Below, in pieces: positions 21,024 to 47,657 of a DNA stretch of 64,000 nt (the stretch's first letter is position 1; every line of letters starts with the position of its first letter). Location: assembly GCA_001567255.1 (NCBI GenBank), contig LNBW01000040.1, positions 1 to 64,000 on the forward strand, in the 5' to 3' direction. The notes under the pieces were generated by a model that saw nothing but the letters and a program-made list of their open reading frames with translations, made no database searches and was not told the DNA's origin. A program made the position numbers and the translations under genes. Origin of the DNA: Bacteroidetes bacterium OLB9 (GTDB lineage: Bacteria > Bacteroidota > Bacteroidia > Chitinophagales > Saprospiraceae).

Positions 21024-22122
21024 TTACATTGGCAATTTAACACTACCTACTGCCATGATTCTTTCTTCAGCAATGCGATTAGCTATCTGATAAGTCGGGA
21101 TATTCTCTTTGGCTGAACGCTGAATGATATTCTGGATAGTCGTGTATATTTCTTCGGCTTTTTTCATGCCCCATTCAGGATTTAAGCCTTTAAATTCAGT
21201 GTAAACATTGATAACGCCACCTGAATTAATAGCAAAGTCAGGTGCATAAATTATGCCTTTTTCCATCACTGCTTTGCCATGCTTATCTTCATCTTTGAGC
21301 TGATTATTGGCAGAACCTGCGATAATTGAACATTTTAGTCTGCTGAGGGTGTCATCATTGACAGTGGCTCCCAGGGCACAAGGTGCGTAGATATCTACAT
21401 CTATATCGTAAATTTCATCCAATCCGACCACTGTAGCACCGTATTGACCGGATATGCGTTTGAGTAAATCTTGATTTATGTCAGAGATAAAGACCTGAGC
21501 ACCTTCTTTAGCAAGATGAGCTACTAAATATTCACCTACATGGCCTACACCTTGAACAGAAATTTTTTTTGCCGCTTAATGAATCTGTACCAAACTGTTC
21601 TTTAGCAGCAGCTTTCATACCAACATAAACACCATAAGCTGTGACTGGTGACGGGTCTCCACTTTTACCTGGTAATCCAACTACATGGTTGGTTTCCATA
21701 TTGATCCAGATCATATCTTGTGGGCTGGTGCCTACGTCTTCAGCAGTGACATATTTGCCGCCAAGGCTATTAACAAACTTCCCAAAACGACGCATGTAGG
21801 CTTCGTTTTTCATAGTTTTTGAATCTCCGATGATTACAGATTTTCCACCACCTAGATTAAGACCGGCTAGGGAATTTTTATAGGTCATACCTCTTGAAAG
21901 CCTCAGTACATCTGTAAGGGCTTCCATTTCATTATTATATTTCCAGATTCGGGATCCGCCGAGTGCAGGGCCTAATACTGTATTGTGGATGCCAATAATG
22001 GCCTTAAGTCCAGTCTCATTGTCATTGCAAAATACAATCTGCTCGTGATCAAACTGACTCATCTGAGCCAGCACTGGATTTTCGCTAATATTTACATCCG
22101 TAATATCTTTTACTTCAAACAT
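21024..22122 (-). CDS. ldh: Leucine dehydrogenase-like Glu/Leu/Phe/Val dehydrogenase (frameshifted in this sequence)
   Basis: Two pieces of one gene. Residues 1-190 carry the substrate domain ([26 protein letters not shown] with the catalytic lysine, [12 protein letters not shown]). The first frame then ends in [16 protein letters not shown] because of a T8 run at 21563-21570. With seven bases it reads [16 protein letters not shown], the NAD-binding GxGxxG fold, and continues to 21024 ([33 protein letters not shown]). The repaired protein has 365 residues, exactly the family length. The family reversibly deaminates branched-chain amino acids to 2-oxo acids with NAD+. Extra homopolymer base, hence probably a sequencing error. 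An inverted repeat (22157-22177) lies upstream. Confidence 0.9.
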
Positions 22123-26085: not shown

Positions 26086-28110
26086 TTAAATTTTTAGCCT
26101 TAAAGTAGCATAGAATGTCCGGCCCCAGTGCAGACTCTGCTGATTGCTGGCTTCAATATGGATGCCATTGATATTGTTTACTTGCAACTGAGTAATGTTA
26201 AATATGTTTTTCACACCAAAATTAAGACGGATCTTTTTATCGAAAAAATGAGTTGAAAATCCGGAATTCAACATGTTCCAGCTATCAGTAAAACCTTGGT
26301 GATTGACACCGTCCTGATTGTAAAAGTAGGGTGTTCGCCCTGTGCGTTTGTGCCATATATCCCAGCTGATACGTTCATTTAAAAAGGAAAATGTCAACTG
26401 ATTGATCCAGTCTGGTGACCATAGTAGGGTTCCTTTTGGCACTTCTACATCTTCATTAGTATTATTAAAGCCGGTAGTGATCAACTCGGTACTCAATTGA
26501 ATATTTTTACTTTTGTAGGCAAAGCGAATGCTTCCTCCCATTGTTTTAAATTCATCCACATTGCTGTATTCGTAATGCACAGGACCCAAAGCAGTCAGGA
26601 TGATGCGATCTTTGACATTATTGTAAAATCCGGTGATGGTACCTATAATAGAAGCATTTGGTCGCTTGAAGAATTTCCAAGACAATTCGCTTCTTAGATT
26701 TAGTGATTTTTCAGGATTGAGTTGTGGATTTCCGATAACGTAGTGATTTACGTCGATAAAAGAAAAGAAAAGTTCTTTTATCGCCGGAGACCTAAAGCCA
26801 TAAGCCCAAGAAGTTCTAAAGTTAAGGTCTTTTTTGGGTTGCCAGTGTAGCCATGTTGAAGGTGTAAAAGCAGAACCATATCGACTATTGGCTGTCCACC
26901 TTACTCCTGACTGAATCGTAAGATTGTGTAAAACTTTGTACTTTCCACTAACAAATAGTCCGAAATCATTAGCATAAGCTCTACCAGTAGCATCGAGTGT
27001 AGTATCAGACAGTCTGGTGCCGGTAGCTACTTCGTAGTAATTCTCAAATCCGATGATATAGCCCAATTTATCAGAAGCTTTATCACTTGCAAAGGTAAAC
27101 CTAGCTAATACTCCCGTGGTGGATGATGTGTCTTGTAAACCTTCTAAAGTTTCATTAATTCCGCTCTCAAAATCATAGCGATAGGAATTTTTTATTCGAT
27201 GAAAAGTATTCCACCCTGCGGTCATCTGAAGCAGATTTTTATTTTTTGTCCACCTTTCTCCGTGAAAACCGATGTCAAATCGATCTGTCATGTAATAATC
27301 ATCAAAGGCATAAGGTCTATATTGTGGCCTTTTGATATCTCCTAGGTTATCCACGACCTCTGTGAGTACACTAGTATTCAACCTCAGGTCAGTTCGGTCA
27401 TCTGGTCGAAAACGAACTAAGCCACGAGCAGATTTTTGCTTTTTAGGATTCCATAATTGATCACGCCCCATCGAGGTATCTTGAGCAGGTAGGAAATTCT
27501 GAAGATTACCATTCACTTGAAAAATCCACTTTTCATTAGAATATCCAAGATCGGTTGTAATCTGCTTAAATCCATTATTTTCATACTGACCGACGACTTC
27601 TGATTCAAACTTTTTTAGTTGACTTTTTTTGGTAATGATGTTGATCACGCCACCTGATGCATCAGATCCATATAATAAAGACTGAGCGCCCTCTATGATT
27701 TCGACTTTCTGAATTGAGTTGAGAGGTACTTGTCCTGCATCAATGCTACCGTTGAGACGGCCAACAATAGGGATTCCGTCAATCAAAATTTTGAGATTCT
27801 CACCTTTGAGTGCATTGACACTTATGACACTGCCCAGTATGGGGTCTTGCGATACCCTAATGGACGCTTCAGTTTGCAATAATTCATACAAATTGACAAT
27901 AGATTTTTGCTCTATGTTTTCTCGGGTGAGAATTTTTACAGAATTAACAGTCTGACGTGCATCAGTAGGCGTGTATTGAGCTGTAATCACAACCTGCTCC
28001 AGATGGTGCTGGTCTGATACAGAATCAGAAGATTGTTGAGCTGCAACCATTCCACACAGCAGACACGTCAGAATGCTGTTAAATATTCTGATTTTGATGG
28101 ATTTATTCAA
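26086..28110 (-). CDS. hmuR: TonB-dependent outer-membrane receptor, HmuR-like (haem)
   Basis: 674 residues with signal peptide (ending about VAAQ, residue 25), a TonB-box-like QVVITAQ, a plug (about 45-165, with INIITKKS at its end) and a 22-strand barrel ending in the LRLKI strand. It is similar in kind to BtuB and to haem receptors. The assignment to haem rests on its partner: a HmuY-like protein is encoded 18 bases upstream on the same strand, the order found in the Porphyromonas hmuYR operon. No dedicated inner-membrane haem transporter follows. The alternative is another TonB substrate with an unusual lipoprotein-free partner. Confidence 0.78.
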   Translation of the reverse strand: MNKSIKIRIFNSILTCLLCGMVAAQQSSDSVSDQHHLEQVVITAQYTPTDARQTVNSVKILTRENIEQKSIVNLYELLQTEASIRVSQDPILGSVISVNALKGENLKILIDGIPIVGRLNGSIDAGQVPLNSIQKVEIIEGAQSLLYGSDASGGVINIITKKSQLKKFESEVVGQYENNGFKQITTDLGYSNEKWIFQVNGNLQNFLPAQDTSMGRDQLWNPKKQKSARGLVRFRPDDRTDLRLNTSVLTEVVDNLGDIKRPQYRPYAFDDYYMTDRFDIGFHGERWTKNKNLLQMTAGWNTFHRIKNSYRYDFESGINETLEGLQDTSSTTGVLARFTFASDKASDKLGYIIGFENYYEVATGTRLSDTTLDATGRAYANDFGLFVSGKYKVLHNLTIQSGVRWTANSRYGSAFTPSTWLHWQPKKDLNFRTSWAYGFRSPAIKELFFSFIDVNHYVIGNPQLNPEKSLNLRSELSWKFFKRPNASIIGTITGFYNNVKDRIILTALGPVHYEYSNVDEFKTMGGSIRFAYKSKNIQLSTELITTGFNNTNEDVEVPKGTLLWSPDWINQLTFSFLNERISWDIWHKRTGRTPYFYNQDGVNHQGFTDSWNMLNSGFSTHFFDKKIRLNFGVKNIFNITQLQVNNINGIHIEASNQQSLHWGRTFYATLRLKI

Positions 28111-28128: not shown

Positions 28129-29418
28129 TTATTGTTTTGCAATTTTACGTGATGATATGTTTTGACCATCACTGACTTTTACGATGTAAAGACCTTTATT
28201 CCATTCCTGAGTATCGATATTGATGACATTCCATCCATGTAAATTGTGCAATTGTTTGCTGGTAATTAATCGACCTGACTGATCGAGTACTTCAATTGAA
28301 TAGTTATGGTTTTCACCATTAGCTATATCAAGAGATACGATGAGTTCGTTTACAACCGGATTAGGGAAAGTACCAAATTCCACATTTTTAAGCTCATGTG
28401 TGGCAGATGGTTGACCTAAAAATGTCTTCTGAATAGTAGCAGTTCCTGTGGCACTACCTTCAAAATCGATAAATACAATTTTCCAAATGTTGTTGTCAGG
28501 CAATTTTACAAAAAATGCTCTATCAGCAGCCAATGACCAGCCGGTGCCAACTAGTGTCTTCCAGTCATAACCTATGGCATCGACCTTTTCTGTGAATTTA
28601 TCCAGATAATCGTCCACTTTCACTGTTTCAGGGTCAATCCCGTTGGCCACCGCTGTTTTTACTCCTGGCGCAGTCAACACCCCGGTTACATTGTAGTATT
28701 GTTCGATGGTGCCATTTGGATCTTTAGCCCATGAGACATATCTTCCGTACATTAAGTCATATCCACCAGTAGGGAGAATATCCACAGTATTTTCAGTAGT
28801 AAAGCTAAAGTATATCAACTTCTGATTTAGGTTGTCTTTAGTTTTACTAAGTGTCTTGGTAACTTTGTTACTACCATCAAGATTAGCATAAGTGAATACA
28901 TAATCTGTTCCATTAAGTGCATCAATTTTTATCTTTTTATAGTTGCCATCCCGCAATTTTAATACATAAACTTTATTGCCGACTACTGCATGGCTACTTG
29001 GAGCATAAACACCCCAACCATAATCAAAAGGATTGCTGAGGTCTCTTACAATGTTAAATGCACCATAATTCCATGTGTCTTTACTATTGTACAGTTTGTT
29101 GGTTTTTATTTTTTCTAGATCAATAGGTGCATCAAAATCTCCACTTTCAGTGACATATAATTCTGTCTGAGGCAGGTTTTCGCCTGTAGAACTAGGTGCA
29201 GATTCATTAATGTATATACCAGCATCTTGAAATCCAAAGGCAGAGAACGCGATATCCCAAGCATCATTACTGACCTGCTTTTGTGTGCCCTCAGCTAATT
29301 TTACATAACTTTGAAACTTATAATTTGGTCCACAACTGATTTCCTGGTATTCTTGAGCTGTAGATGAAGTCAATGCGAATAGTAAAAATATAAAAGTGCA
29401 TGTTGAAAATTTATACAT
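28129..29418 (-). CDS. hmuY: HmuY-like haem-binding protein with a T9SS sorting domain
   Basis: 429 residues. The signal peptide ends near STAQ (residue 22), with no lipobox cysteine at the cleavage point. The central part has HmuY features: the WDIAFSAFGFQDAG motif near residue 54, and later YDLMYGRYVSWAKDPNG, EQYYNVTGVL and a W-rich strand pattern (GYDWKTLVGTGWSLAADRAFFVK). The last 80 residues form a type A T9SS sorting domain (FPNPVVNELIVSL...GLYIVKVSDG...SRKIAKQ). HmuY of Porphyromonas is a lipoprotein that strips haem from host proteins. Here the form is exported by T9SS instead. It is followed by the TonB receptor after 18 bases. A -7 box lies at 29459-29452. Confidence 0.8.
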   Translation of the reverse strand: MYKFSTCTFIFLLFALTSSTAQEYQEISCGPNYKFQSYVKLAEGTQKQVSNDAWDIAFSAFGFQDAGIYINESAPSSTGENLPQTELYVTESGDFDAPIDLEKIKTNKLYNSKDTWNYGAFNIVRDLSNPFDYGWGVYAPSSHAVVGNKVYVLKLRDGNYKKIKIDALNGTDYVFTYANLDGSNKVTKTLSKTKDNLNQKLIYFSFTTENTVDILPTGGYDLMYGRYVSWAKDPNGTIEQYYNVTGVLTAPGVKTAVANGIDPETVKVDDYLDKFTEKVDAIGYDWKTLVGTGWSLAADRAFFVKLPDNNIWKIVFIDFEGSATGTATIQKTFLGQPSATHELKNVEFGTFPNPVVNELIVSLDIANGENHNYSIEVLDQSGRLITSKQLHNLHGWNVINIDTQEWNKGLYIVKVSDGQNISSRKIAKQ

Positions 29419-29451: not shown

Positions 29452-29459
29452 CAAAGATA
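29452..29459 (-). promoter_or_regulatory. -7 box of the hmuY-hmuR promoter (TATCTTTG)
   Basis: Exact consensus on the minus strand, 34 bases ahead of the hmuY start. No Fur-like palindrome was recognised. The rest of 29460-29728 is very AT-rich and shows no gene. Confidence 0.6.
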
Positions 29460-29728
29460 GGGTTATAGCAGCCTATAAATCATAGCTTTTACTGTCATAA
29501 ATATGTCATAAATCGTATTACATTACTGCTTATACGTGGTAGATATAAAAATTATTTATATTTATATTGTACTAATATGATATGTATAATTAATATATAA
29601 TCAGTAATATATGGTTCAAATTAGGATCATAGTTTCTAAATTGTCCTTGAAAAGTCAATTTGAATACTATAATAAGAGAAATTACAAATTTGGATTAAGA
29701 GCGGATACAAATGGGAATGCTCCATGTA

Positions 29729-31528: not shown

Positions 31529-31547
31529 AATATTTGTAATGTATAGT

Positions 31548-31579
31548 AAGAAAGGCCGCTAAGATTAGTGGCCTTTCTT
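31548..31579. terminator. Bidirectional terminator between gcdH and the DUF4296 gene
   Basis: Perfect 10-bp stem AAGAAAGGCC / GGCCTTTCTT with a 12-base loop, followed by ATATTTTCC. The genes on both sides point towards it. Confidence 0.85.
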
Positions 31580-31592
31580 ATATTTTCCTTGT

Positions 31593-31955
31593 TCATTTTA
31601 TTCCTTCGTAAGGTAGATTGTCATAATCTTCATACAGTTGTATGATTGTATCCAATGCTCTTCTTTGTAGTTTGAGCAATGTATCAGGCATCTTATTTAA
31701 CTTGTGTAGGTCGCTCATTATCACATCTATAGGCTTTCCGGTGACAAGCTCTACTTGTTTTAAATACACCATGCGCATACTGTCTCTGACAGCCGGATCA
31801 TTGATGCCGTTGGCCGCATTTACAGTATAAAGCTCTACAAGAGCGTGGACAATTTCATCATTAGTCATGTCAAGGTCATTATCTGGCTTGCTTTTGTAAT
31901 CACAAGACAAGAGACCAACAATAAATGTGAGTATTATCAAACTTCTTCTGATCAT
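31593..31955 (-). CDS. DUF4296 lipoprotein
   Basis: 120 residues from the ATG at 31955 (MIRRSLIILTFIVGLLSC), which gives a lipoprotein signal peptide with Cys18. The longer open frame would bury this signal. The remainder is helical with the DUF4296 pattern: NDEIVHALVELYTVNAANG, then RDSMRMVYLKQVELVTG and HKLNKMPDTLLKLQRRALDTI. The family is restricted to Bacteroidota and has no known function. The start codon overlaps the SixA stop by 4 bases (ATGA), so the two genes are coupled. Confidence 0.8.
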   Translation of the reverse strand: MIRRSLIILTFIVGLLSCDYKSKPDNDLDMTNDEIVHALVELYTVNAANGINDPAVRDSMRMVYLKQVELVTGKPIDVIMSDLHKLNKMPDTLLKLQRRALDTIIQLYEDYDNLPYEGIK

Positions 31956-36766: not shown

Positions 36767-39754
36767 ATGACTTTAAAATTTTTCTCACTTCTTGCTACAT
36801 TAATAGTTTTTCTCTCATTTGATGCAATGTCTCAAGTCAATGGAGTAGTGAAAGACGTAAATGGCGAAACCTTAATCGGTGCTGCAGTAAAAGTAAAAAA
36901 TACATCAAAAGGAACATTGACAGATATCGATGGAGGCTTTCAAATTGATGCTAACCCGGGTGATATTTTGTCTGTGTCCTATATTGGTTATAGTGATATC
37001 GATATTCCGGTGACGACGCAGCAATATTATGAAATCATCATGCAAGAATCAGACATCATCCTTGACCAAGTGGTTGTGGTTGGTTATGGCACTCAAAGAA
37101 AGGTGGATGTGACCGGCTCAACTGTAAGTGTCAAAGGAGAAGAGCTAGCTAAGCAACCAGTAATGACTGCTACCCAAGCGCTTCAGGGGAAAGTCGCCGG
37201 TGTACAAATCTTAGGAAGTGGTAAGCCAGGCGAGTCTCCTACAGTGAGAGTCAGAGGTGTCGGTACTGCTTTGGCAGGAACGACGGCTTTATTTGTTGTG
37301 GATGGCGTGCTGACGGATGATATCAGTAATATCAACACATCAGATATAGTGAGCATGGATGTACTTAAGGATGCATCATCGACCGCCATTTATGGAGCAC
37401 GTGGCGCTAATGGCGTTATAATCATCACCACTAAAAGAGGCACAACGGGTGCTACAAAGATTAATTACAACAATTTTGTTGGTTATAGAAATGCAACGAA
37501 TATCGTAAAAATGGCCAATGCATCTGAATATGCAAATTATGCTTCATCAGCTACAGGTCAGACTGTTGTGGCAGGTGACGTGAGTACCGATTGGTACAGA
37601 GAGATTCTTCGCAATGCATTTGTTCATAATCACAATTTATCTATATCAGGCGGTACTGAAAAGATGTCGCATTTTTTGGGGTTTGGTTATCTGGATGAAG
37701 ATGGTATCGTATTGAATAATAATTTTAAAAGGCTTGATGTACGGGCCAATTTGGATTATGATCTCTTTACTTTTCTTAAAATCGGGCTGACCAGTTCCTA
37801 TTCAAATTCCATAAATAAAGATGTTAATTTAGGAGCAGCTTATAATAATGCTTATCGGGCTGCACCGATCATTCCCGGTAAGGTAGATGGTAGGTATGGC
37901 AATACTTCTCAGTATCAGAATGTCGGTAATGCAATACTTGATTTAAGTAATAATGATATAAGAAATTTGGGTAACAGACTTCAGGCATCTGCGTATGCAG
38001 AGATTGTGCCTTTGTCAGGTCTTAAGTATCGTTCGATGATAGGTCTGGATCGCAATAATTACAATAATAGAAGTTATAATTATCAATTTCTCAATGATGA
38101 AACGACCTTTCTAACTTCAGGTGGCAATCAAGTGAATCGCCAAAGTTATCTGAATGTCTTTAATGAATACAATTTCCGTTGGGTATGGGATAATATTGTT
38201 ACTTATGAAACCACGTTTGACAAACACAGATTTACTTTCCTAGCAGGTACTACTGCCGAAGCTTTTAATGGTAATTGGTTTTCAGCTTCTCGCAAGGATG
38301 TACCCGCTGTTAAGGATTTGTGGTATATTAATACAGGCGATGCCAATACATCTGTAAATAGCGGAGGTGGAGATGCATGGGCTAGAAACTCTTATTTAGG
38401 ACGTCTCAATTACAACTATGGTGATAAGTATTTATTTACAGGTACAATCAGGCGTGATGGCAGCAGCAGGATTGCTCAGGAAAACCGATGGGGATGGTTT
38501 CCTTCTTTTGGTGTAGGATGGGTAGTGACAGGTGAAGATTTTATGAAAGACTTTACATTACTGGAAACGCTGAAGTTGCGAGCCTCCTGGGGTAGAGTAG
38601 GAAATGACAGAATCCCTTCCGACGCCTTCACTGTGACGATAACTCCTAATCAGGCATATCCTTTTGGAGGTGGTATCGCCGTCAATGGAAGTGCCATCAC
38701 ACAGGTCAAAGATCCGAATTTAAAATGGGAAACAACAGAGGAAACAGACCTCGGTATTGATTACGCTTTGATGAAAGGTAGGTTGTATGGAGAATTTGGC
38801 TTTTATACGAAGACAACGCGAGATTTGTTGATTAATGTCAAGCTACCTGCTACTGCAGGAGATGAGGATGGAGTTATCCTGACCAATGCTGCATCCATCA
38901 AAAATACGGGTTTTGAAGCAGCAATCAACTGGAGAGATGCAGTTTCGTCAAAGCTTTCGTATAGGATAGGTGCTAATATAACGCTGAATAAAAATGAAGT
39001 GACCGGACTGAATGGCGGCGAACCCATCCTGGATGGAGGTGTAGGTGCTGCCCAGATATATACCACTAAAACTGACAACGGACAGCCTGTAGGCGCATTT
39101 TATGTTTATCAAGTGTTAGGCGTGTTTCAAAATGAAGAAGAAATTAAGTCTTATCAGTCTGCGGCAGGGCAAGTGATCCAACCGGATGCATCACCAGGTG
39201 ATTTTAAGTATCAAGATTCCAATGGTGATGGTCGTATTGATGACAAAGACCGTGTATTTATAGGTTCTTATCAACCCAAAACCTACTTTGGACTCAATGC
39301 AGAAGTCAATTATGGCGCTTTTGATTTGAGTTTTGACATTTACGGTAATGTTGGCAATTATATTTACAATGGTAAAAAGGCTTTGCGTTTGAGTGGCTTG
39401 GACAACATTGAAAAATCACTTGCTTATGGTAGGTGGACACCAGGATCAGGCATTCAGGATGAGCCTAAAGCCAACTCTGGTTATTTACCGGCTTCTACCT
39501 ACTATATCGAGTCAGGCGACTTTGTACGGTTAAACAATGTAACCCTTGCTTATAACCTACCTGAATCAATGCTAGGAAAAGCACATATAAATAGCGCTAA
39601 AGTTTTTATCACAGGTCAGAATTTATTAACATTAAAAAAGTTTACTGGCTTTTCCCCTGAATTATCAGGAGATTCACCGACACGAGCTGGGATTGAGCTT
39701 AATGCTTATCCTACGACGCGTACGATTGCAGCAGGCGTTAATGTCAGTTTTTAA
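36767..39754 (+). CDS. susC: SusC/RagA-family TonB-linked outer-membrane transporter
   Basis: 995 residues: signal peptide (ending SFDAMSQ, about 23), a carboxypeptidase-regulatory-like domain (VNGVVKDVNGETLIGAAVKVKNTSKGT), a TonB-box region DQVVVVGYGTQRK, a plug (VDVTGSTVSVKGEEL to GVIIITTKRG) and the large barrel. SusC proteins import oligosaccharides held by their SusD partner, which is encoded 17 bases downstream. The neighbouring glycosidases point to beta-1,2-glucan fragments. Expression is probably controlled by the sensor regulator upstream. Confidence 0.95.
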   Translation: MTLKFFSLLATLIVFLSFDAMSQVNGVVKDVNGETLIGAAVKVKNTSKGTLTDIDGGFQIDANPGDILSVSYIGYSDIDIPVTTQQYYEIIMQESDIILDQVVVVGYGTQRKVDVTGSTVSVKGEELAKQPVMTATQALQGKVAGVQILGSGKPGESPTVRVRGVGTALAGTTALFVVDGVLTDDISNINTSDIVSMDVLKDASSTAIYGARGANGVIIITTKRGTTGATKINYNNFVGYRNATNIVKMANASEYANYASSATGQTVVAGDVSTDWYREILRNAFVHNHNLSISGGTEKMSHFLGFGYLDEDGIVLNNNFKRLDVRANLDYDLFTFLKIGLTSSYSNSINKDVNLGAAYNNAYRAAPIIPGKVDGRYGNTSQYQNVGNAILDLSNNDIRNLGNRLQASAYAEIVPLSGLKYRSMIGLDRNNYNNRSYNYQFLNDETTFLTSGGNQVNRQSYLNVFNEYNFRWVWDNIVTYETTFDKHRFTFLAGTTAEAFNGNWFSASRKDVPAVKDLWYINTGDANTSVNSGGGDAWARNSYLGRLNYNYGDKYLFTGTIRRDGSSRIAQENRWGWFPSFGVGWVVTGEDFMKDFTLLETLKLRASWGRVGNDRIPSDAFTVTITPNQAYPFGGGIAVNGSAITQVKDPNLKWETTEETDLGIDYALMKGRLYGEFGFYTKTTRDLLINVKLPATAGDEDGVILTNAASIKNTGFEAAINWRDAVSSKLSYRIGANITLNKNEVTGLNGGEPILDGGVGAAQIYTTKTDNGQPVGAFYVYQVLGVFQNEEEIKSYQSAAGQVIQPDASPGDFKYQDSNGDGRIDDKDRVFIGSYQPKTYFGLNAEVNYGAFDLSFDIYGNVGNYIYNGKKALRLSGLDNIEKSLAYGRWTPGSGIQDEPKANSGYLPASTYYIESGDFVRLNNVTLAYNLPESMLGKAHINSAKVFITGQNLLTLKKFTGFSPELSGDSPTRAGIELNAYPTTRTIAAGVNVSF

Positions 39755-39771
39755 CCATTAAATCTAAAGTT

Positions 39772-41301
39772 ATGAATTCAGTTTATATAAAAAATCTGAT
39801 TGTTATAGTTTCTTTACTTTTATTGAATGCATGTAGCGAAGATTTTCTAGAAATACCGGTTCAAGGTGCGGCTACAGCTGAGTCTGATCCTGCACTTGCA
39901 GAGAAGCTGGTGACCGGTGTGTATAATAGTTTGATATCTGGTGATGCTTTCGGCAATGGGGATGCGCATGGTATCGCATTTATTTCATTGACCAATATCA
40001 TTTCTGACGATGCAGATAAAGGAAGCACGCCTAATGATCAAATAGGAATTATTGGCGAACTGGATAATTTTACACATACACCTACCAATGTATTTGTTGG
40101 CTCGATATGGAAAGGTCACTATAATGCTATATCACGATGCAATCAAGCACTTAAAGCATTGGAAACGGCCTCTGTTGATGATACAAAGAAGCAACAATTT
40201 ATAGGTGAGGTCAGATTTATCCGTGGATACTATTACTTCAATCTGGTTAGGTGGTTTGGTGGTGTGCCCGCAGTATTGAGGGTGCCTGAAAGTGCAGCAG
40301 ATGCTAACAGTGATGACGCTTTTCGTACTAGGGCCTCATCAGAAGAAATTTATAATATTATCATCAATGATTTACAGTATGCGGTTGATCACCTTCCTTT
40401 GAGAAATGCAACACAAAAAGGCAGAATCAATAAAGGGACGGCAGAAGGTATGCTGGCTAAAGTGTATATGTATCGCAAAGATTGGCAAAAAGTATTTGAT
40501 CTTTCCTCCGAAGTCGTCAATAGCGGCCAGTTTGCACTTTTAAATGACTATGCTAAAATATGGCGTTTCGAAGGTAATAATAGTGTAGAATCCATGTTTG
40601 AAATTCAGACAGGTACTTTTAATAATACAGATTTTGGAGTACGTGGTTATTGCGTTTGGCAAGGACCACGTGTGGGTGGAAAAGGAGGATGGACTGATTT
40701 GGGATTTGGATTTTGTACGCCTAGTGGGAATCTTGTTCAATCTTATGATCCTGCGGACACCAGACGATTATCCACTGTGATTGAAATTGATAATTCAGAA
40801 ACCCATAAAGGCACGATATTGTATGACGGTTATAGGATTCCTAGTAAGGACAGTATCGAGAACCTTTATTATAATTACAAAGCCTATCATAGTGAATTGA
40901 GAAAAGGCGAACCGTATTTGGGCAATAGAGATAATAAACAAAAAAACATTCAAATATTGAGATATGCAGATATCTTGCTGATGCAGGCAGAAGCAGCTAA
41001 TGAGCTTGGCCAACCGGACATCGCTATAAGTAATCTCAATATGTTGCGAGCAAGAGCGGGACTTGCACCAGTAAGTATTGCTGGTGGAACAGCACTAAGA
41101 GAAACAATATGGAATGAAAGGAGATTTGAACTTGCTATGGAACATGATCGTTTTTTTGATATAGTACGACAAGGTAGAGCTGCTGAAATTATGAATGCCG
41201 TCGGTAAGCACTTTGTCAAAGGTAAGCATGAACTGCTTCCGATACCTGCCTTGCAGATAGAACTTAGTGGAGGCAGAATGGAACAAAACCCGGGTTATTA
41301 A
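39772..41301 (+). CDS. susD: SusD/RagB-family surface glycan-binding lipoprotein
   Basis: 509 residues with a lipoprotein signal peptide (LLLLNACSEDFL, Cys21). The usual SusD helices and TPR-like repeats follow, including NQALKALETASVDDTKKQQFIGEVRFIRGYYYFNLVRWFGGVP, and the C-terminal segment AEAANELGQPDIAISNLNMLRARAGL...WNERRFELAMEHDRFFDIVRQG. It caps the SusC barrel and binds the glycan. The 17-base spacing to susC shows co-transcription. Confidence 0.95.
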   Translation: MNSVYIKNLIVIVSLLLLNACSEDFLEIPVQGAATAESDPALAEKLVTGVYNSLISGDAFGNGDAHGIAFISLTNIISDDADKGSTPNDQIGIIGELDNFTHTPTNVFVGSIWKGHYNAISRCNQALKALETASVDDTKKQQFIGEVRFIRGYYYFNLVRWFGGVPAVLRVPESAADANSDDAFRTRASSEEIYNIIINDLQYAVDHLPLRNATQKGRINKGTAEGMLAKVYMYRKDWQKVFDLSSEVVNSGQFALLNDYAKIWRFEGNNSVESMFEIQTGTFNNTDFGVRGYCVWQGPRVGGKGGWTDLGFGFCTPSGNLVQSYDPADTRRLSTVIEIDNSETHKGTILYDGYRIPSKDSIENLYYNYKAYHSELRKGEPYLGNRDNKQKNIQILRYADILLMQAEAANELGQPDIAISNLNMLRARAGLAPVSIAGGTALRETIWNERRFELAMEHDRFFDIVRQGRAAEIMNAVGKHFVKGKHELLPIPALQIELSGGRMEQNPGY

Positions 41302-41370
41302 TCGTATGTAATAGTTTTTTTTAATATTTTAAATGTTTATACCTATTTTTTCACACTAAAATTATTTAAA

Positions 41371-42234
41371 ATGAAGTCTAAATTTTTTGGTATTTTAATG
41401 GTTTTTGGCTTTGCTATGGGCCTTGTTTTGAACACTACTTCGTGCAAGAAGGAAGACGATAAACTTCCACCAATTGACGGATATAATAATGCAGACGAAG
41501 TGGCTGCTTCCAATCTTATAGCTTACTGGCCATTGAATGGTGATGGTAAAGAAGCTAAGTCAGGCGCTAGTCCGACTACTGTAAAAAATGTAACTTACGT
41601 GGATGGTAAAAAAGGAAAAGCAGCTAAACTTGCCGAGGGACTTTTGGGTTATGATGAGATTGCAAATCTGAACAGCTTGCCAAATATGACCGTATCTCTT
41701 TGGGCTAACTTTGACAACAATGGGTCTGCAGCTACAGTATTTTTCTCTATGTCTAGACCTAATGAGTGGGCAGGCAATATCAACTTGATGTCTGAGACCG
41801 GTTGGAAAAAGGCAGGTGTTGATACACTTGTACTGAAAGGTCTTGTAGTCACTAATGTAGCAAACAATCCTTCATTCCAGGATTCAAGAAATGAGCCGTC
41901 TAAAGGAGGTGTTCAGGCTGCATCAGGCATCAATAAGTGGAATCACATCGTGATGACTTGGGATGGAGCAACCTCCAACTTTAAGATTTATCAAAATGGT
42001 GTAAAAGTAAGCAATCCTGAATGGGAGCAAAGAGGAACAACTGGCCCACTGAATTTCTTCACACCTACTAAGCCTATTATCGGAGGATATGGTACTCTAC
42101 TTCCAGGTGGTGGCACTCCAGAGGCATGGCAAAAAGCAATGACAGGTATGGTAGATGAGGTTAGAGTGTACAACAAGGCCTTGAGTGATGCAGAAATAGG
42201 CTCATTATTTAAGCTAGAATCTGCTGGCAGATAA
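41371..42234 (+). CDS. LamG/concanavalin-fold lipoprotein at the SusE position
   Basis: 287 residues with lipoprotein signal (LNTTSCKKEDD, Cys25). A laminin-G-like jelly-roll domain follows (LIAYWPLNGDGKEAKSG, MTVSLWANFDN, WNHIVMTWDGATSNFKIYQNG, GMVDEVRVYNKALSDAEI). These features match the LamG_3 type seen in many Bacteroidota surface proteins. In a locus of this kind it would act as an extra surface glycan-binding protein. No catalytic residues are expected. A strong hairpin follows at 42250-42289. Confidence 0.83.
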   Translation: MKSKFFGILMVFGFAMGLVLNTTSCKKEDDKLPPIDGYNNADEVAASNLIAYWPLNGDGKEAKSGASPTTVKNVTYVDGKKGKAAKLAEGLLGYDEIANLNSLPNMTVSLWANFDNNGSAATVFFSMSRPNEWAGNINLMSETGWKKAGVDTLVLKGLVVTNVANNPSFQDSRNEPSKGGVQAASGINKWNHIVMTWDGATSNFKIYQNGVKVSNPEWEQRGTTGPLNFFTPTKPIIGGYGTLLPGGGTPEAWQKAMTGMVDEVRVYNKALSDAEIGSLFKLESAGR

Positions 42235-42249
42235 TAATTTATTAAGGTT

Positions 42250-42289
42250 AAAATTGTATAATGGGGACAATTCTCCATTATACAATTTT
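42250..42289 (+). terminator. Strong hairpin between the binding-protein and glycosidase genes (terminator or attenuator)
   Basis: Perfect 15- to 16-bp stem AAAATTGTATAATGG / CCATTATACAATTTT with a short loop, followed by T residues. The next gene begins 10 bases later, so it may limit but not abolish read-through. Confidence 0.8.
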
Positions 42290-42299
42290 TGATGTTTAA

Positions 42300-43949
42300 A
42301 TGGGGCGATTTCTGTATAGTACATCTTTTTTGATCATGTTGACAATGCTTTTTGTATCGTGCAGCAAAGGAGATGATATGGTAAAAAGTAGCCCAGTATT
42401 TTCGTGTAAAAATATTGTCATTGATGGTAGATATGGCGCTCATATCGCAGGCGTGCCACTGAAGCCAATTATAACAGCTACCTTTGATGATAAGGTGAAT
42501 ATTGGCACTTTAAAAACAGCTATTTCTGTCAGTGGACCCGCCCAAAAGCCTATTGAACTGATTTTTACTCCGACGAATCAGGACTCTACAGTTCAGATTC
42601 AGCTGGTCGATGCTCTGAATTCAATTACTAATTATGTTTTTAGCATTAATACTTCTTTAAAGTCAGCAGATAACAGATCACTTTCCGGCGATTATACTAT
42701 CCAGTTTACTACCATAATCGACACACTTGATAAACGCCCCAGAATATCGGATGATCAATTGATGGATACTATACAGCGACAAACGTTTAGTTATTTCTGG
42801 GAGTTTGCTCATCCGGTTTCAGGTATGATCAGGGAAAGGAATACATCAGGAGATTTGGTCACAACTGGCGGTACCGGATTTGGAATCATGGCTATAGTTG
42901 CTGCTGTTCATAGAGGATTTATCAGTCGTGAGGACGGTTTAAACCGTATTATTACTATAGCTGATTTTCTGGAGCAAAAGACCACCAGATACCATGGTGC
43001 ATTTGCCCACTGGATAGATGGTGCTACAGGAGCGACAATACCTTTTAGTTCAAAAGATGATGGTGGCGACCTCGTTGAAACATCGTTTCTAATAGCTGGA
43101 TTGCTCTGTGCTGCAGAATATTTTGACCGCTCTGAAACTACTGAACAACACCTTCGGGAGACGGTTCAACGGCTATGGCATGATGTTGAATGGGACTGGT
43201 ACACTAATGGTAAAAATGTACTCTATTGGCATTGGTCTCCTAAGTACAATTGGGAAATCAATCTTCCTATCAAAGGCTGGAATGAAGCCTTGATTACCTA
43301 CATACTCGCTGCTGCTTCGCCGACGCATGGCATTCAGCCTGAAGTATATCATCAAGGGTGGGCATCAGGCGGACAAATGAAGAATGGAAATTCTTATTAT
43401 AATTATACATTACCTCTTGGCCCGGCATTGGGCGGACCGCTTTTTTTTGAGCATTATTCCTTTCTAGGTATCAATCCTATGAAATTGCAAGATCAATACG
43501 CTGATTATCGGTTGCAGACAGTGAACCATACGCTCATTAATCGAGGCTACTGCATCCGGAATCCACAAAATTATTATGGTTATAGCGATAAATGTTGGGG
43601 ACTCACCGCTAGTGATACACGCAATGGTTATACTGCCCATAGCCCGACTAATGATAAGGCTGTAATTACACCTTCAGCGGCATTGTCGTCATTGCCATTT
43701 ACACCCGATGAATCATTAAAGGCTATGCGTTTTTTTTATTACAAACTTGGGGATTTTATTTTTGGAAAATACGGTTTTTATGATGCCTTTAGCCTTCACT
43801 ACGGATGGAAGTCCAATACATGGCTAGCTATCGATCAAGGACCGATTATGATTATGATTGAAAACTATAGAAGTGGCCTGATATGGGAATATACTATGAG
43901 AAATAAAGATATTAGAAATGGGCTTGATAAGCTTGGATTTACATACTAA
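42300..43949 (+). CDS. GH144-type endo-beta-1,2-glucanase lipoprotein (glucoamylase-like family)
   Basis: 549 residues. Lipoprotein signal (MLFVSCSKGDD, Cys22), then an Ig-like Big_5 domain (about 35-140, ITATFDDKVNIGTLKTAISVSG...LSGDYTIQF). The (alpha/alpha)6 domain follows: RQTFSYFWEFAHPVSGMIRERN, TTGGTGFGIMAIVAAVHRGF, DLVETSFLIAGLLCAAEYFD, WHWSPKYNWEINLPIKGWNEALITYILAAASPTH and DAFSLHYGWKSNTWLAIDQGPIMIMIENYR. This is the family that includes the Chitinophaga beta-1,2-glucanase. It would cut beta-1,2-glucan at the surface. A paralogue follows after 14 bases. Confidence 0.82.
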   Translation: MGRFLYSTSFLIMLTMLFVSCSKGDDMVKSSPVFSCKNIVIDGRYGAHIAGVPLKPIITATFDDKVNIGTLKTAISVSGPAQKPIELIFTPTNQDSTVQIQLVDALNSITNYVFSINTSLKSADNRSLSGDYTIQFTTIIDTLDKRPRISDDQLMDTIQRQTFSYFWEFAHPVSGMIRERNTSGDLVTTGGTGFGIMAIVAAVHRGFISREDGLNRIITIADFLEQKTTRYHGAFAHWIDGATGATIPFSSKDDGGDLVETSFLIAGLLCAAEYFDRSETTEQHLRETVQRLWHDVEWDWYTNGKNVLYWHWSPKYNWEINLPIKGWNEALITYILAAASPTHGIQPEVYHQGWASGGQMKNGNSYYNYTLPLGPALGGPLFFEHYSFLGINPMKLQDQYADYRLQTVNHTLINRGYCIRNPQNYYGYSDKCWGLTASDTRNGYTAHSPTNDKAVITPSAALSSLPFTPDESLKAMRFFYYKLGDFIFGKYGFYDAFSLHYGWKSNTWLAIDQGPIMIMIENYRSGLIWEYTMRNKDIRNGLDKLGFTY

Positions 43950-43963
43950 TCATTGGATAGGAT

Positions 43964-45322
43964 ATGAGATTTTTCACGTTGTTTCTTTTATGTATGTTAG
44001 GTATGAGCTGCAGCCCTACCCGAAAAACAGAAATAGAGTATTCACGCCACGAATTAAAAAAACGTACTTTTGATTATTTTTGGAATGTGGTGGACTCTAG
44101 TTACCAGACATGGGACAGATATCCACAGCAGACATTTTCAAGTATTGCTGCTACAGGGTTTGGGCTTACGGCGTACCCTTTGGGCATAGAAAATAAATTT
44201 ATCACCCGTGATGAAGGTGCTCAACGTGTATTAAAGACACTGGATAATCTATGGAGAATGCCTCAAGGGCCCGGAACGTCAGGCACAGCAGGATATAAGG
44301 GTTTTTATTATCATTTTCTTACGATCGACCAAGCACACCGGTATAAACAAGTAGAACTTTCTTCAATAGATACAGGTCTTCTTATGGCTGGCGTATTGAC
44401 GTGTATGAGTTATTTTGACAAGGATAACAGTGTTGAGAATAAAATTCGTACACTGGCAGACTCACTCTATCTGCGTGTGGACTGGAACTGGATGATGAAA
44501 CCCAACGGTATCATGAGCATGGGTTGGCATCCCGAGTCTGGATTTATCGATAGTGAATGGGCAGGATATAATGAAGCGATGATATTACTTATCATGGCCA
44601 TGGGATCACCGACACACCCTACGCCGGATGATACCTGGAGTAAATGGTGCAGAACCTATGATTTTGATACCTTTTACGGCTATAAAAGCGTGCAATTCGA
44701 TCCTCTTTTTGGCCATCAATACAGCCATATTTGGATTGATTTTCGTGGTATTCAGGACAGTATTATGGAGGTACACCATGACGACTACTTCAATAATTCG
44801 GCCCAAGCTACCCTTGCCAACAGGTCATACTGTATTGCTAACCCTATGCAATGGAATGGATATGCCGAAAATCTGTGGGGATTATCTGCATGTGACGGCC
44901 CAGGAGATGACCGCCTAATGTTAGATGGTAAAGAACGTCAATTTTTTTCCTATCGTGCGCGAGGTGCCAGTAGTGTTCAGGTCGTGGATGATGGTACTAT
45001 AACGCCTACTGCAGCAGGAGGATCATTTCCATTTACACCTGAGAAATCAGAAGCTTGCTTAAAAAATATTTGGGAGACTTATTATCATGAGATGGTGGGT
45101 GAATATGGGTTGAAAGATGCTTTTAATCTGACATATATAACTCCTGAATTTCCTAATGGATGGTTTGATAATGATTATATCGGAATAGATCAGGGAGCTA
45201 TTTTGCTACAGATAGAGAATCATGAAACGGAATTAATATGGAATATTATGAAAAAGAATCCTTATATTATTTCCGGTTTGAAAAAGGCAGGATTTAAAGG
45301 CGGATGGCTGGATCAAAAATAA
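43964..45322 (+). CDS. Second GH144-type glycosidase lipoprotein
   Basis: 452 residues with a lipoprotein signal (LGMSCSPTRK, Cys16) and only the (alpha/alpha)6 domain. Motifs are parallel to the preceding protein: KRTFDYFWNVVDSSYQTWDRYP, AATGFGLTAYPLGIENKFITRDE, SSIDTGLLMAGVLTCMSYFD, WAGYNEAMILLIMAMGSPTHP, YGLKDAFNLTY and IGIDQGAILLQIENHETELIW. It differs from the first by lacking the Ig-like domain and by a different active-site surround. It may act on shorter sophoro-oligosaccharides. That division of labour is inference. It is 14 bases after the first copy and 25 bases before the GH3 gene. Confidence 0.78.
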   Translation: MRFFTLFLLCMLGMSCSPTRKTEIEYSRHELKKRTFDYFWNVVDSSYQTWDRYPQQTFSSIAATGFGLTAYPLGIENKFITRDEGAQRVLKTLDNLWRMPQGPGTSGTAGYKGFYYHFLTIDQAHRYKQVELSSIDTGLLMAGVLTCMSYFDKDNSVENKIRTLADSLYLRVDWNWMMKPNGIMSMGWHPESGFIDSEWAGYNEAMILLIMAMGSPTHPTPDDTWSKWCRTYDFDTFYGYKSVQFDPLFGHQYSHIWIDFRGIQDSIMEVHHDDYFNNSAQATLANRSYCIANPMQWNGYAENLWGLSACDGPGDDRLMLDGKERQFFSYRARGASSVQVVDDGTITPTAAGGSFPFTPEKSEACLKNIWETYYHEMVGEYGLKDAFNLTYITPEFPNGWFDNDYIGIDQGAILLQIENHETELIWNIMKKNPYIISGLKKAGFKGGWLDQK

Positions 45323-45347
45323 ATTTACAACATAAATTCAAAAGGAT

Positions 45348-47657
45348 ATGCGGAAGTTGACCATTTTTATACTTTGTTGCTTAACGATCAATGTTTTTGC
45401 ACAGAAAATTAATAGCAAGAAGAATGACAATTATGGTGTACAATATTACAAATCGCTAGGTGCTTCCGATAGGGTAGCTCAGCTGATGGTTAAGATGAAC
45501 ATCGATGAAAAGATAGGCCAACTCAACTTAATCACTCCCGGAGGCACCGTGACAGGAGAGATCGTGAGCAAGGATGTGAATACCAAAATACGCAATGGAC
45601 AAGTCGGAGGTATTTTTGGGATTCGGGGTGCTGATAAACTCCGAAAAGTTCAGGAATTGGCCGTAAAAAAAAGCAGGTTGGGTATTCCTTTGATGGTTGG
45701 TATTGATGTGATTCACGGACATCAGACGATTTTTCCGATACCTCTAGGTCTATCCTGTACCTGGGATATGGATTTGATTGAAACATCAGCAAGAATAGCC
45801 GCAAAAGAAGCGACTGCAGATGGGTTGATGTGGACATTTTCGCCTATGGTTGATATAGCCAGAGACCCTCGATGGGGACGTATAGCTGAAGGCAGTGGTG
45901 AAGATCCATTTTTAGGATCAAAAATTGCGGCCGCAATGGTAAGAGGATATCAGGGAAAGGATCTTTCTTCTTCATCCACCATGCTGGCATGTGTCAAGCA
46001 CTTTGCATTGTATGGTGCTGCCGAAGGAGGTAGAGATTATGGCACGGTTGACATGAGTAAGGTGAGAATGATGAATGAATACATGCCACCATTTAAAGCA
46101 GCGATTGATGCAGGCGTAGGGTCTGTTATGACTTCCTTCAATGTGGTAGATTATGTGCCTGCTTCCGGTAGTAAATTTCTATTTAAAGAATTACTTCGGG
46201 ATAAATGGGGTTTTGACCAATTGGTAGTGACAGATTATACTGCTATTAATGAGATGATAGAGCATGGCACAGGTGATTTACAAGCGGTTGCAGCACAAGC
46301 GATGCATGCATCTATAGACATGGATATGGTAGGTGAGGGTTATCTGACTACACTAAAAAAATCGCTCCAAGAACGTAAAGTCAGTCAAACAGAAATAGAC
46401 AAGGCGTGTATTCGAGTATTAATGGCTAAAGAAAAGCTAGGTATTTTGGATGACCCATACAAATATTTTGATACTACTCGTGCTGAAAGAGATATTTTGA
46501 CGGATGAAAATCGTGCATTTGCCCGAAAAATAGCCGCAGCATCTTTTGTCCTACTTAAAAATGAAAACCACATCCTGCCACTCAGCAAAACAGCCAAAAT
46601 AGCACTGATAGGACCACTTGCAGACAGCCGGCGTAATATGCTCGGTACCTGGAGCGTAAGCGGTGACCATGAAAAGGCGGTGACTGTACTGGAGGGTCTG
46701 AAAAATGTCATTGACGCTGAAGGCCAAATATTATATACTAAAGGTGCAAATATTTCTGATGACCCGGACTTTGCACACAGAGTCAATGCCTTCGGAGAAG
46801 AAATCTCCATAGACAAGCGTTCTCCTGATGAGATGATAGAAGAAGCACTTAACATTTCAGCATCAGCAGATGTTATTGTAGCAGTAGTAGGAGAGGCAGC
46901 AGATATGACTGGCGAAGCTTCCAGCATGACAAATATAAGCTTACAACCAGCACAGAAGAAGCTACTAAGAGCGCTAAAAAATACCGGAAAGCCTATCGTT
47001 ATGGTACTTTACAATGGTCGCCCTATGGTGATTAAGGAAGAGATGGAAAGCATGGATGCTGTACTGGATGTTTGGTTTGGAGGCACAGAGGGCGGCAATG
47101 CTGTTGCGGACGTACTTTTTGGGGATGTAAATCCGGGAGGTAAGCTGACCACTTCTTTTCCCGTCAATGTAGGTCAAATACCGGTGTATCATGCCATGCT
47201 TAATACAGGCAGACCGGACTCTGGGACACAAGCCAAATTTAGATCTAATTATCTTGATGCGCCCAATGCACCATTGTTGCCTTTTGGATTTGGATTATCT
47301 TATACTACCTTCGAATATGGAAAACCCATAATTAATAGTCCTACGATGAAAAAGGATGGCAGCATCACGGTAAGTATAAAAGTTAAGAACACCGGTACTA
47401 TTGGTGGACATGAAGTAGTTCAAATGTATATCAGAGACAAAGTAGCGAGTATCAGTCGTCCCGTTAAAGAACTCAAAGGATTTAAGAAGATATACCTAGA
47501 TCCTGGTGAGCAGCAAGAAGTTACATTCACAATAACGCCCGACTTACTGATGTTTTATAATGATCACCTTGACTACGTCCTGGAGCCAGGAGAGTTTGAG
47601 GTGATGGTAGGCACAAATTCACGAGATGTTCAGACGGTTAATTTCGTTCTGGAATAA
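45348..47657 (+). CDS. bglX: GH3 beta-glucosidase (BglX type)
   Basis: 769 residues with a signal peptide (ending NVFAQ, about 19), so periplasmic. The N-terminal GH3 barrel (LMVGIDVIHGHQTIFPIPLGLSCTWD, ARDPRWGRIAEGSGEDPFL, CVKHFALYGAAEGGRDYGTVDMS) carries the nucleophile Asp296 in VVTDYTAINEMI. The alpha/beta sandwich (AASFVLLKNENHILPLS, VAVVGEAADMTGEASSMT) supplies the acid/base region, and a fibronectin-III-like C-terminus follows. It would release glucose from the oligosaccharides made by the GH144 proteins. A GH3 beside GH144 and SusCD is the layout known for beta-1,2-glucan (sophorose) use. Confidence 0.92.
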   Translation: MRKLTIFILCCLTINVFAQKINSKKNDNYGVQYYKSLGASDRVAQLMVKMNIDEKIGQLNLITPGGTVTGEIVSKDVNTKIRNGQVGGIFGIRGADKLRKVQELAVKKSRLGIPLMVGIDVIHGHQTIFPIPLGLSCTWDMDLIETSARIAAKEATADGLMWTFSPMVDIARDPRWGRIAEGSGEDPFLGSKIAAAMVRGYQGKDLSSSSTMLACVKHFALYGAAEGGRDYGTVDMSKVRMMNEYMPPFKAAIDAGVGSVMTSFNVVDYVPASGSKFLFKELLRDKWGFDQLVVTDYTAINEMIEHGTGDLQAVAAQAMHASIDMDMVGEGYLTTLKKSLQERKVSQTEIDKACIRVLMAKEKLGILDDPYKYFDTTRAERDILTDENRAFARKIAAASFVLLKNENHILPLSKTAKIALIGPLADSRRNMLGTWSVSGDHEKAVTVLEGLKNVIDAEGQILYTKGANISDDPDFAHRVNAFGEEISIDKRSPDEMIEEALNISASADVIVAVVGEAADMTGEASSMTNISLQPAQKKLLRALKNTGKPIVMVLYNGRPMVIKEEMESMDAVLDVWFGGTEGGNAVADVLFGDVNPGGKLTTSFPVNVGQIPVYHAMLNTGRPDSGTQAKFRSNYLDAPNAPLLPFGFGLSYTTFEYGKPIINSPTMKKDGSITVSIKVKNTGTIGGHEVVQMYIRDKVASISRPVKELKGFKKIYLDPGEQQEVTFTITPDLLMFYNDHLDYVLEPGEFEVMVGTNSRDVQTVNFVLE

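Follow-up and report, generated by a model that had tools for sequence, protein, structure and literature searches.

HmuY proteins differ in how they hold haem. The iron is coordinated by His/His, His/Met or Met/Met ligands or by none, and some members bind the porphyrin ring without coordinating the iron (PMC12106395). For T. maritimum, HmuY is reported to be a lipoprotein whose gene stands in tandem with that of HmuR (PMC10288586, PMC5561996), and in F. psychrophilum the haem binder HfpY is co-transcribed with its receptor HfpR, the two supplying iron from haem compounds (PMC9331221). F. columnare HmuY (C6N29_01035) carries HmuY_like and Por_Secre_tail domains and is called T9SS-secreted, citing Thunes 2022; its deletion mutant showed wild-type growth in two media and kept its virulence in fish (PMC9618737). 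Among the portions of the literature covered, this is the only paper that shows a single protein with both HmuY and a sorting domain. In two other species, T9SS type A sorting-domain proteins are the products of separate genes next to hmuY, namely POREN0001_0445 in the hmu operon of P. endodontalis, upstream of hmuY, and the product of a P. intermedia gene after hmuY that is upregulated 104-fold when iron is depleted (PMC11208336, PMC10434189). T9SS effectors can be either anchored at the surface or released, and P. gingivalis Hbp35 is a haem-binding cargo delivered by this route (PMC10202324).

The window, i.e. the whole stretch of DNA that was analysed (64,000 nt; Bacteroidetes bacterium OLB9, assembly GCA_001567255.1, contig LNBW01000040.1, positions 1 to 64,000 of the forward strand), contains a gene pair with the following features.

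28129..29418 (-), T9SS-type double-HmuY protein, an open reading frame (ORF) of 429 aa with an ATG start
29356..29418 (-), predicted signal peptide, about aa 1-21, no lipobox, read from the sequence
28888..29322 (-), HmuY repeat 1, aa 33-177, from Pfam, a local HMM and structural matches of the repeat alone
28990..28992 (-), His143, a possible haem ligand and the only His in both HmuY repeats, assessed by conservation counts
28435..28821 (-), HmuY repeat 2, aa 200-328, from the local HMM and a profile match to 3h8t
28132..28368 (-), type A T9SS C-terminal sorting domain (CTD), aa 351-429, from Pfam and NCBIfam profiles
26086..28110 (-), TonB-dependent receptor, 674 aa, with FRSP (439), H456 and NPQL (461), TTG start as listed

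An earlier note on this DNA had described a HmuY-like protein in which a T9SS signal replaces the lipid anchor, paired with a TonB receptor, and our analysis bears out both points. The lack of a HmuY match in a profile search, which it named as a refuting outcome, did not occur: HmuY (PF14064) is matched at aa 32-169 with 39.3 bits against a Pfam cut-off of 27. The sorting domain is likewise above the cut-offs, with Por_Secre_tail (PF18962) at aa 351-426 scoring 44.2 bits against 27 in Pfam and TIGR04183 scoring 43.1 bits against 23 in NCBIfam. By inspection, the predicted signal peptide ends in ...SSTAQ, and no lipobox is seen; the only cysteines among the first 40 residues, C7 and C29, do not lie in one. 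The protein thus appears to lack the lipid anchor that is typical of characterised HmuY proteins, which is not part of the Pfam definition. A lipobox-like string occurs in one of 72 T9SS-type ORFs with a strict pattern and in three with a looser one.

Where the earlier note had a single central HmuY domain, we find two repeats. Pfam alone reports the first, whereas a local HmuY profile, built from the Pfam matches and iterated for one round, detects aa 33-177 at 84.6 bits and aa 200-328 at 83.8 bits (46.6 and 32.9 bits before iteration). When profiles of the two halves were compared with each other, hhalign gave a probability of 96.7 and an E value of 3.3e-10. The repeat 2 profile matches P. 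gingivalis HmuY (3h8t, E 1.7e-6) and the repeat 1 profile matches B. fragilis BfrB (8b6a, E 1.5e-4), in each case via two short stretches, neither of them strong by itself. BfrB, BfrC and BF2707 we take to be HmuY homologues. The AlphaFold model of the whole protein had a pLDDT of 91.1, and that of repeat 1 by itself had 86.1. For the latter model, the best eight structural matches are HmuY or HmuY-like chains (Z 6.6-8.4, P. gingivalis HmuY at the top), and the next ones score 4.9 and 2.6; Foldseek also ranks HmuY-family chains first, yet with E values of 6e-3 or worse and none at E<=0.001. The whole-protein model matches PinO, BF2707 and Tfo (Z 11.6-13.1, 133-158 residues aligned). Because single HmuY chains align across aa 15 to 338 of this model, one HmuY unit may share strands between both repeats. 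Structural matches of the sorting domain include T9SS CTDs (PorU, mirolase, the NucA substrate complex) together with many unrelated Ig-like domains at similar Z, which is not specific, and the assignment of this domain therefore rests on the sequence profiles.

Because the genome encodes SprA (1942 bits) and PorV (399.7 bits), both over their cut-offs, as well as 91 TIGR04183 stretches (89 over the cut-off), the protein is likely to be exported by T9SS. Like other T9SS effectors it may be either surface-anchored or released, and the action at a distance envisaged in the earlier note is not supported as stated.

The receptor gene lies 18 bp downstream of the HmuY gene on the same strand, and its product bears a haem-receptor signature. 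In the T9SS-linked receptors of at least 600 aa, R440, P442, H456 and H651 are invariant (44/44), and the FRxP-His-NxxL motif is found in all 44, with its first F and its N each substituted in a few; H456 occurs in 24/48 other receptors. Neither ABC nor HemS genes were identified next to the window pair, and the ORFs that follow it downstream encode bPH_2 proteins.

Four other regions of the window are recorded here as observations in their own right. A 1249-aa ORF at 8012-11761 (-) combines a subtilase domain (PF00082, aa 165-472), a cellulase Ig-like domain and GH9 (aa 596-1089), and looks like an unusual protease-cellulase fusion. At 21024-22122 (-), a Glu/Leu/Phe/Val dehydrogenase is split into an N part (21532-22122) and a C part (21024-21431), through either a broken gene or an assembly error. 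At 36767-47657 (+), glucoamylase-type and GH3 genes lie close to the gene of a SusC-like receptor, in what looks like a polysaccharide utilisation locus. A Thr_leader match at 31545-31652 (-) is sub-threshold (27.2 bits against a gathering score of 55) and probably due to chance.

PF14064 is matched in 133/395 genomes of a phylum sample. In the window's order, at least 101/298 genomes have a match to the HmuY part, among the matches listed; these genomes were read by hand at E<=2e-14 within that part, and three of them, G441, G487 and G551, have weaker matches, of which that in G487 may be a lipoprotein form. In the window genome itself, Pfam reports no second HmuY gene, and the order-wide search with the whole protein counted a second match. 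A scan of genome contigs confirmed 260 relatives, of which 80 were kept, by name as follows: 29 Saprospiraceae or Saprospirales; seven Lewinellaceae, Phaeodactylibacter or Aureispira; 14 Flavobacteriales, Fluviicola or Crocinitomicaceae; and 30 others.

The window and the 118 loci fetched from other genomes (119 loci in all) contain 148 HmuY-like ORFs. Two repeats and a CTD are present in 72 of these, including the window's, and two repeats and a lipobox in 55. The lipobox of the latter class was assigned with a loose pattern; 42/57 two-repeat proteins without a CTD satisfy a stricter one. Both fractions are biased, because loci were picked in which the HmuY frame was long or the match nearly full-length. 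In a tree of 129 two-repeat proteins computed with the CTD left out, all 72 T9SS-type proteins fall on one side of a branch with an SH-aLRT of 98 (quick method). The sampled T9SS double-HmuY proteins thus apparently form one clade, which appears to be new.

A receptor lies within 7 kb in 56/72 T9SS-type loci. In 17 of these, including the window, it lies at <=250 bp and is accompanied by no HemS and no lipoprotein HmuY. In 15 it is at <=250 bp with a lipoprotein HmuY, in another 15 it occurs together with HemS, in eight it is farther off with a lipoprotein HmuY, and in one it is farther off alone. Two loci have a lipoprotein HmuY and no receptor found, and 14 have neither in the fetched flank, some flanks being cut by contig ends. 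The HemS loci inspected share the order HmuY, periplasmic binding protein, FecCD permease, ABC ATPase, HemS/ChuX and receptor; the families were confirmed on locus L144 (HemS, 249 bits), and HemS also on L147. A T9SS-type HmuY, a receptor and a second HmuY without CTD occur together in L152, L155, L156, L159-L161, L164, L165, L169-L173, L176 and L177, and in another order in L243, L244, L246, L248-L250, L254 and L256. Judging from their sequences, the two HmuY proteins beside one receptor are apparently anchored differently.

Upstream of the window's HmuY gene there are two further elements.

29452..29459 (-), TATCTTTG, -7-like box, aligned with three close relatives, three more being left out with no start codon found
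29493..29508 (-), direct repeat TGACA-N6-TGACA with an 11-bp period, predicted operator, the only exact copy in the window

The former resembles the Bacteroidota -7 promoter box, and the latter, which reads TGTCA-N6-TGTCA in the other orientation, resembles the Pho box of E. coli. A single copy of the repeat is unremarkable, since shuffled windows contain 0.24 copies on average and at least one in 22/100 shuffles. The 119 loci contain 22 exact copies. Of these, 21 are located at the assigned start of a T9SS-type HmuY gene or immediately before it, and the remaining one has the same position relative to the receptor gene of a T9SS-type HmuY (L177). The 11-bp period is found 21 times in the 118 fetched loci, as opposed to 0-9 times for other periods between 5 and 24. 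When one mismatch is allowed, the site is upstream of 35/72 T9SS-type genes and 0/76 other HmuY genes, the fetched loci containing 92 such sites in 1,463,834 bp with the upstream ones counted in. PhoB- and PhoR-like genes, with NCBIfam PhoB and PhoR scores under the cut-off, adjoin the HmuY gene in two loci (L171, L176). In two others (L155, L160), a lipoprotein HmuY gene is followed by homologues of this PhoB-like regulator.

A second set of loci, tested afterwards, supports the association of TGTCA-N6-TGTCA with T9SS-type HmuY genes. A site with at most one mismatch is upstream of the HmuY match in 24/79 loci (one more was skipped, its flank being too short). Fourteen of the 79 are shared with the first set, and the 65 new loci include 13 with an upstream site, four of them exact. 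The second set has 19 exact sites, ten upstream of a HmuY match and nine elsewhere. Eight of these nine mark the start of a receptor gene, after which come a CTD-less HmuY gene (319-347 aa) and then the T9SS HmuY gene; the ninth, in L233, is outside this receptor-HmuY-HmuY arrangement. The predicted operator is apparently new, and the earlier note does not mention it.

We next consider haem supply. Two haem-synthesis genes, those for ferrochelatase and ALAD, were searched in the window genome, a 97.1%-complete draft in 80 contigs. Neither was matched, by searches positive in 8/14 and 11/14 named control genomes, respectively, and HemS was not matched by a search positive in 1/14. Ferrochelatase is also absent from two congeners. 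Since the genome lacks matches to all three and yet encodes COX1-type haem-copper oxidases, the bacterium is probably a haem auxotroph. Among the matches listed for the 298 genomes of the order, HmuY occurs without ferrochelatase in 66, both occur in 35, neither in 54 and ferrochelatase only in 143, which gives an odds ratio of 5.0 for HmuY versus ferrochelatase absence (Fisher p 5e-10, kinship ignored). Within the window's family (f1), the corresponding counts among the matches listed are 13, 17, 14 and 43 (p 0.09). The 54 genomes with neither and the 35 with both make the link between HmuY and auxotrophy a loose one, and the wider pattern is descriptive. HemS was found in 26/298 genomes of the order. 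In the family, HmuY genomes have ferrochelatase in 14/16 cases with HemS and 3/14 without, a contrast that was not significant in a tree-based pair test on 63 rows, which had too few informative pairs. The upstream repeat is also commoner where ferrochelatase is missing (27/37 loci, versus 8/26 with the gene, kinship ignored), in a count of the 63/72 T9SS loci that are in the order sample, genome G573 being counted twice.

The domains, the absence of a lipobox, the gene pairing, the T9SS genes and the missing haem genes are directly seen; from these we infer how the pair works. The protein would be made with a signal peptide and would cross the outer membrane via T9SS by means of its type A sorting domain, and its two HmuY-type domains would be displayed outside the cell, where they would catch haem. 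Captured haem would pass to the TonB-dependent receptor encoded just downstream, and imported haem would be kept intact as a cofactor. We consider it probable that the gene pair is such a haem-uptake module, serving an auxotroph. The predicted haem binding is supported by context, namely the HemS/ABC operons of relatives and the receptor histidine. His143 bears on it ambiguously. In profile alignments to HmuY, two parts of the sequence align and the stretch between them does not. The His143 column has H in 50/72 sequences and, in a second count, in 32/68, with N or Q in close relatives, and we rejected a strictly conserved His ligand on these grounds. The pattern neither proves nor excludes haem binding, because ligand sets vary within the family (PMC12106395).

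These same data bear on the alternatives. The lax conservation of His143, the lack of a second His in the repeats of the window protein, the 14/72 T9SS-type genes without receptor or lipoprotein HmuY nearby (some flanks being cut) and the F. columnare deletion mutant (PMC9618737) all speak against haem uptake. An unconserved presumed axial ligand and a mutant with no phenotype in the tests described there would fit a scaffold or an adhesin that is secreted and has lost haem binding in its HmuY-like folds. The linkage to a receptor with a conserved histidine argues against this, as does the ability of some HmuY proteins to bind haem by its porphyrin ring (PMC12106395), and we find it improbable. 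A different ligand, cobalamin or another tetrapyrrole taken up by a BtuB-like receptor, is suggested by the best NCBIfam row of the receptor, TonB-B12 at 119.3 bits against 111.5 for TonB-hemin, both far under the cut-off. This reading is very improbable in view of the FRxP-His-NxxL motif of the linked receptors and the HemS linkage in relatives, and for cobalamin we rejected it, no cobalamin riboswitch being found in 18000-40000.

Haem might instead be dismantled for iron, as in classical Hmu systems. F. psychrophilum HfpR/HfpY sets a precedent (PMC9331221), and in 15/72 relatives there is a link to HemS, the inspected ones also having ABC transporter genes. Neither HemS nor such neighbours were identified for the window pair, and in the family ferrochelatase goes with HemS in the contrast given above, with the same non-significant pair test, so that we regard iron supply as rather unlikely here. 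Intact use as a cofactor is most likely, because ferrochelatase, ALAD and HemS are unmatched in a genome with haem-copper oxidases.

More tentatively, and with somewhat less than even confidence, we propose that T9SS double-HmuY proteins are an old, distinct branch of the HmuY family and the outer part of cofactor scavenging by haem auxotrophs, often accompanied in their operon by a second, lipid-anchored double-HmuY and in many cases controlled by an OmpR/PhoB-type regulator via TGTCA-N6-TGTCA, their hosts being environmental Bacteroidota. If this is true, many uncultured Saprospiraceae-like bacteria rely on the haem of their neighbours, caught by a secreted rather than a lipid-anchored protein, and this dependence could be part of the reason why such bacteria are hard to cultivate. 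The conserved upstream repeat would be a handle on the regulation of haem scavenging.

How do these findings compare with known systems? Within the portions of the HmuY, T9SS and Pho-box literature covered, we found no description of the T9SS double-HmuY clade, the link to haem auxotrophy or the upstream repeat, and we found no literature on HmuY or haem auxotrophy in Saprospiraceae. The control site and the link with missing haem synthesis look new. The P. gingivalis HmuY/HmuR pair resembles the window pair in having a HmuY-family protein (3h8t) and a partner TonB receptor. To our knowledge, P. gingivalis HmuY has no sorting domain. Unlike the window protein it is a lipoprotein (PMC5561996), and it holds haem iron by two histidines (PMC12106395). 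HfpY is likewise a haem binder of the HmuY family that shares an operon with its receptor, HfpR; it differs in its iron-supply role, and the available text mentions no T9SS domain (PMC9331221). Hbp35 shares the T9SS route, and thioredoxin activity is reported for it in a title cited in PMC10202324. The T9SS proteins of P. endodontalis and P. intermedia, likened here by description, are encoded by separate genes and are not called HmuY-like in the available text (PMC11208336, PMC10434189). They may or may not belong to the double-HmuY clade, and an operon of a T9SS protein with HmuY may be partly known already. The closest likeness, by domain description, is to F. columnare HmuY, with its HmuY domain and Por_Secre_tail. 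As far as the available text goes, that protein is not described as having two HmuY repeats, and HmuR is absent from the main text, HmuY alone standing under heme uptake in a table (PMC9618737). The architecture is thus already published, and the window gene is another member of this kind.
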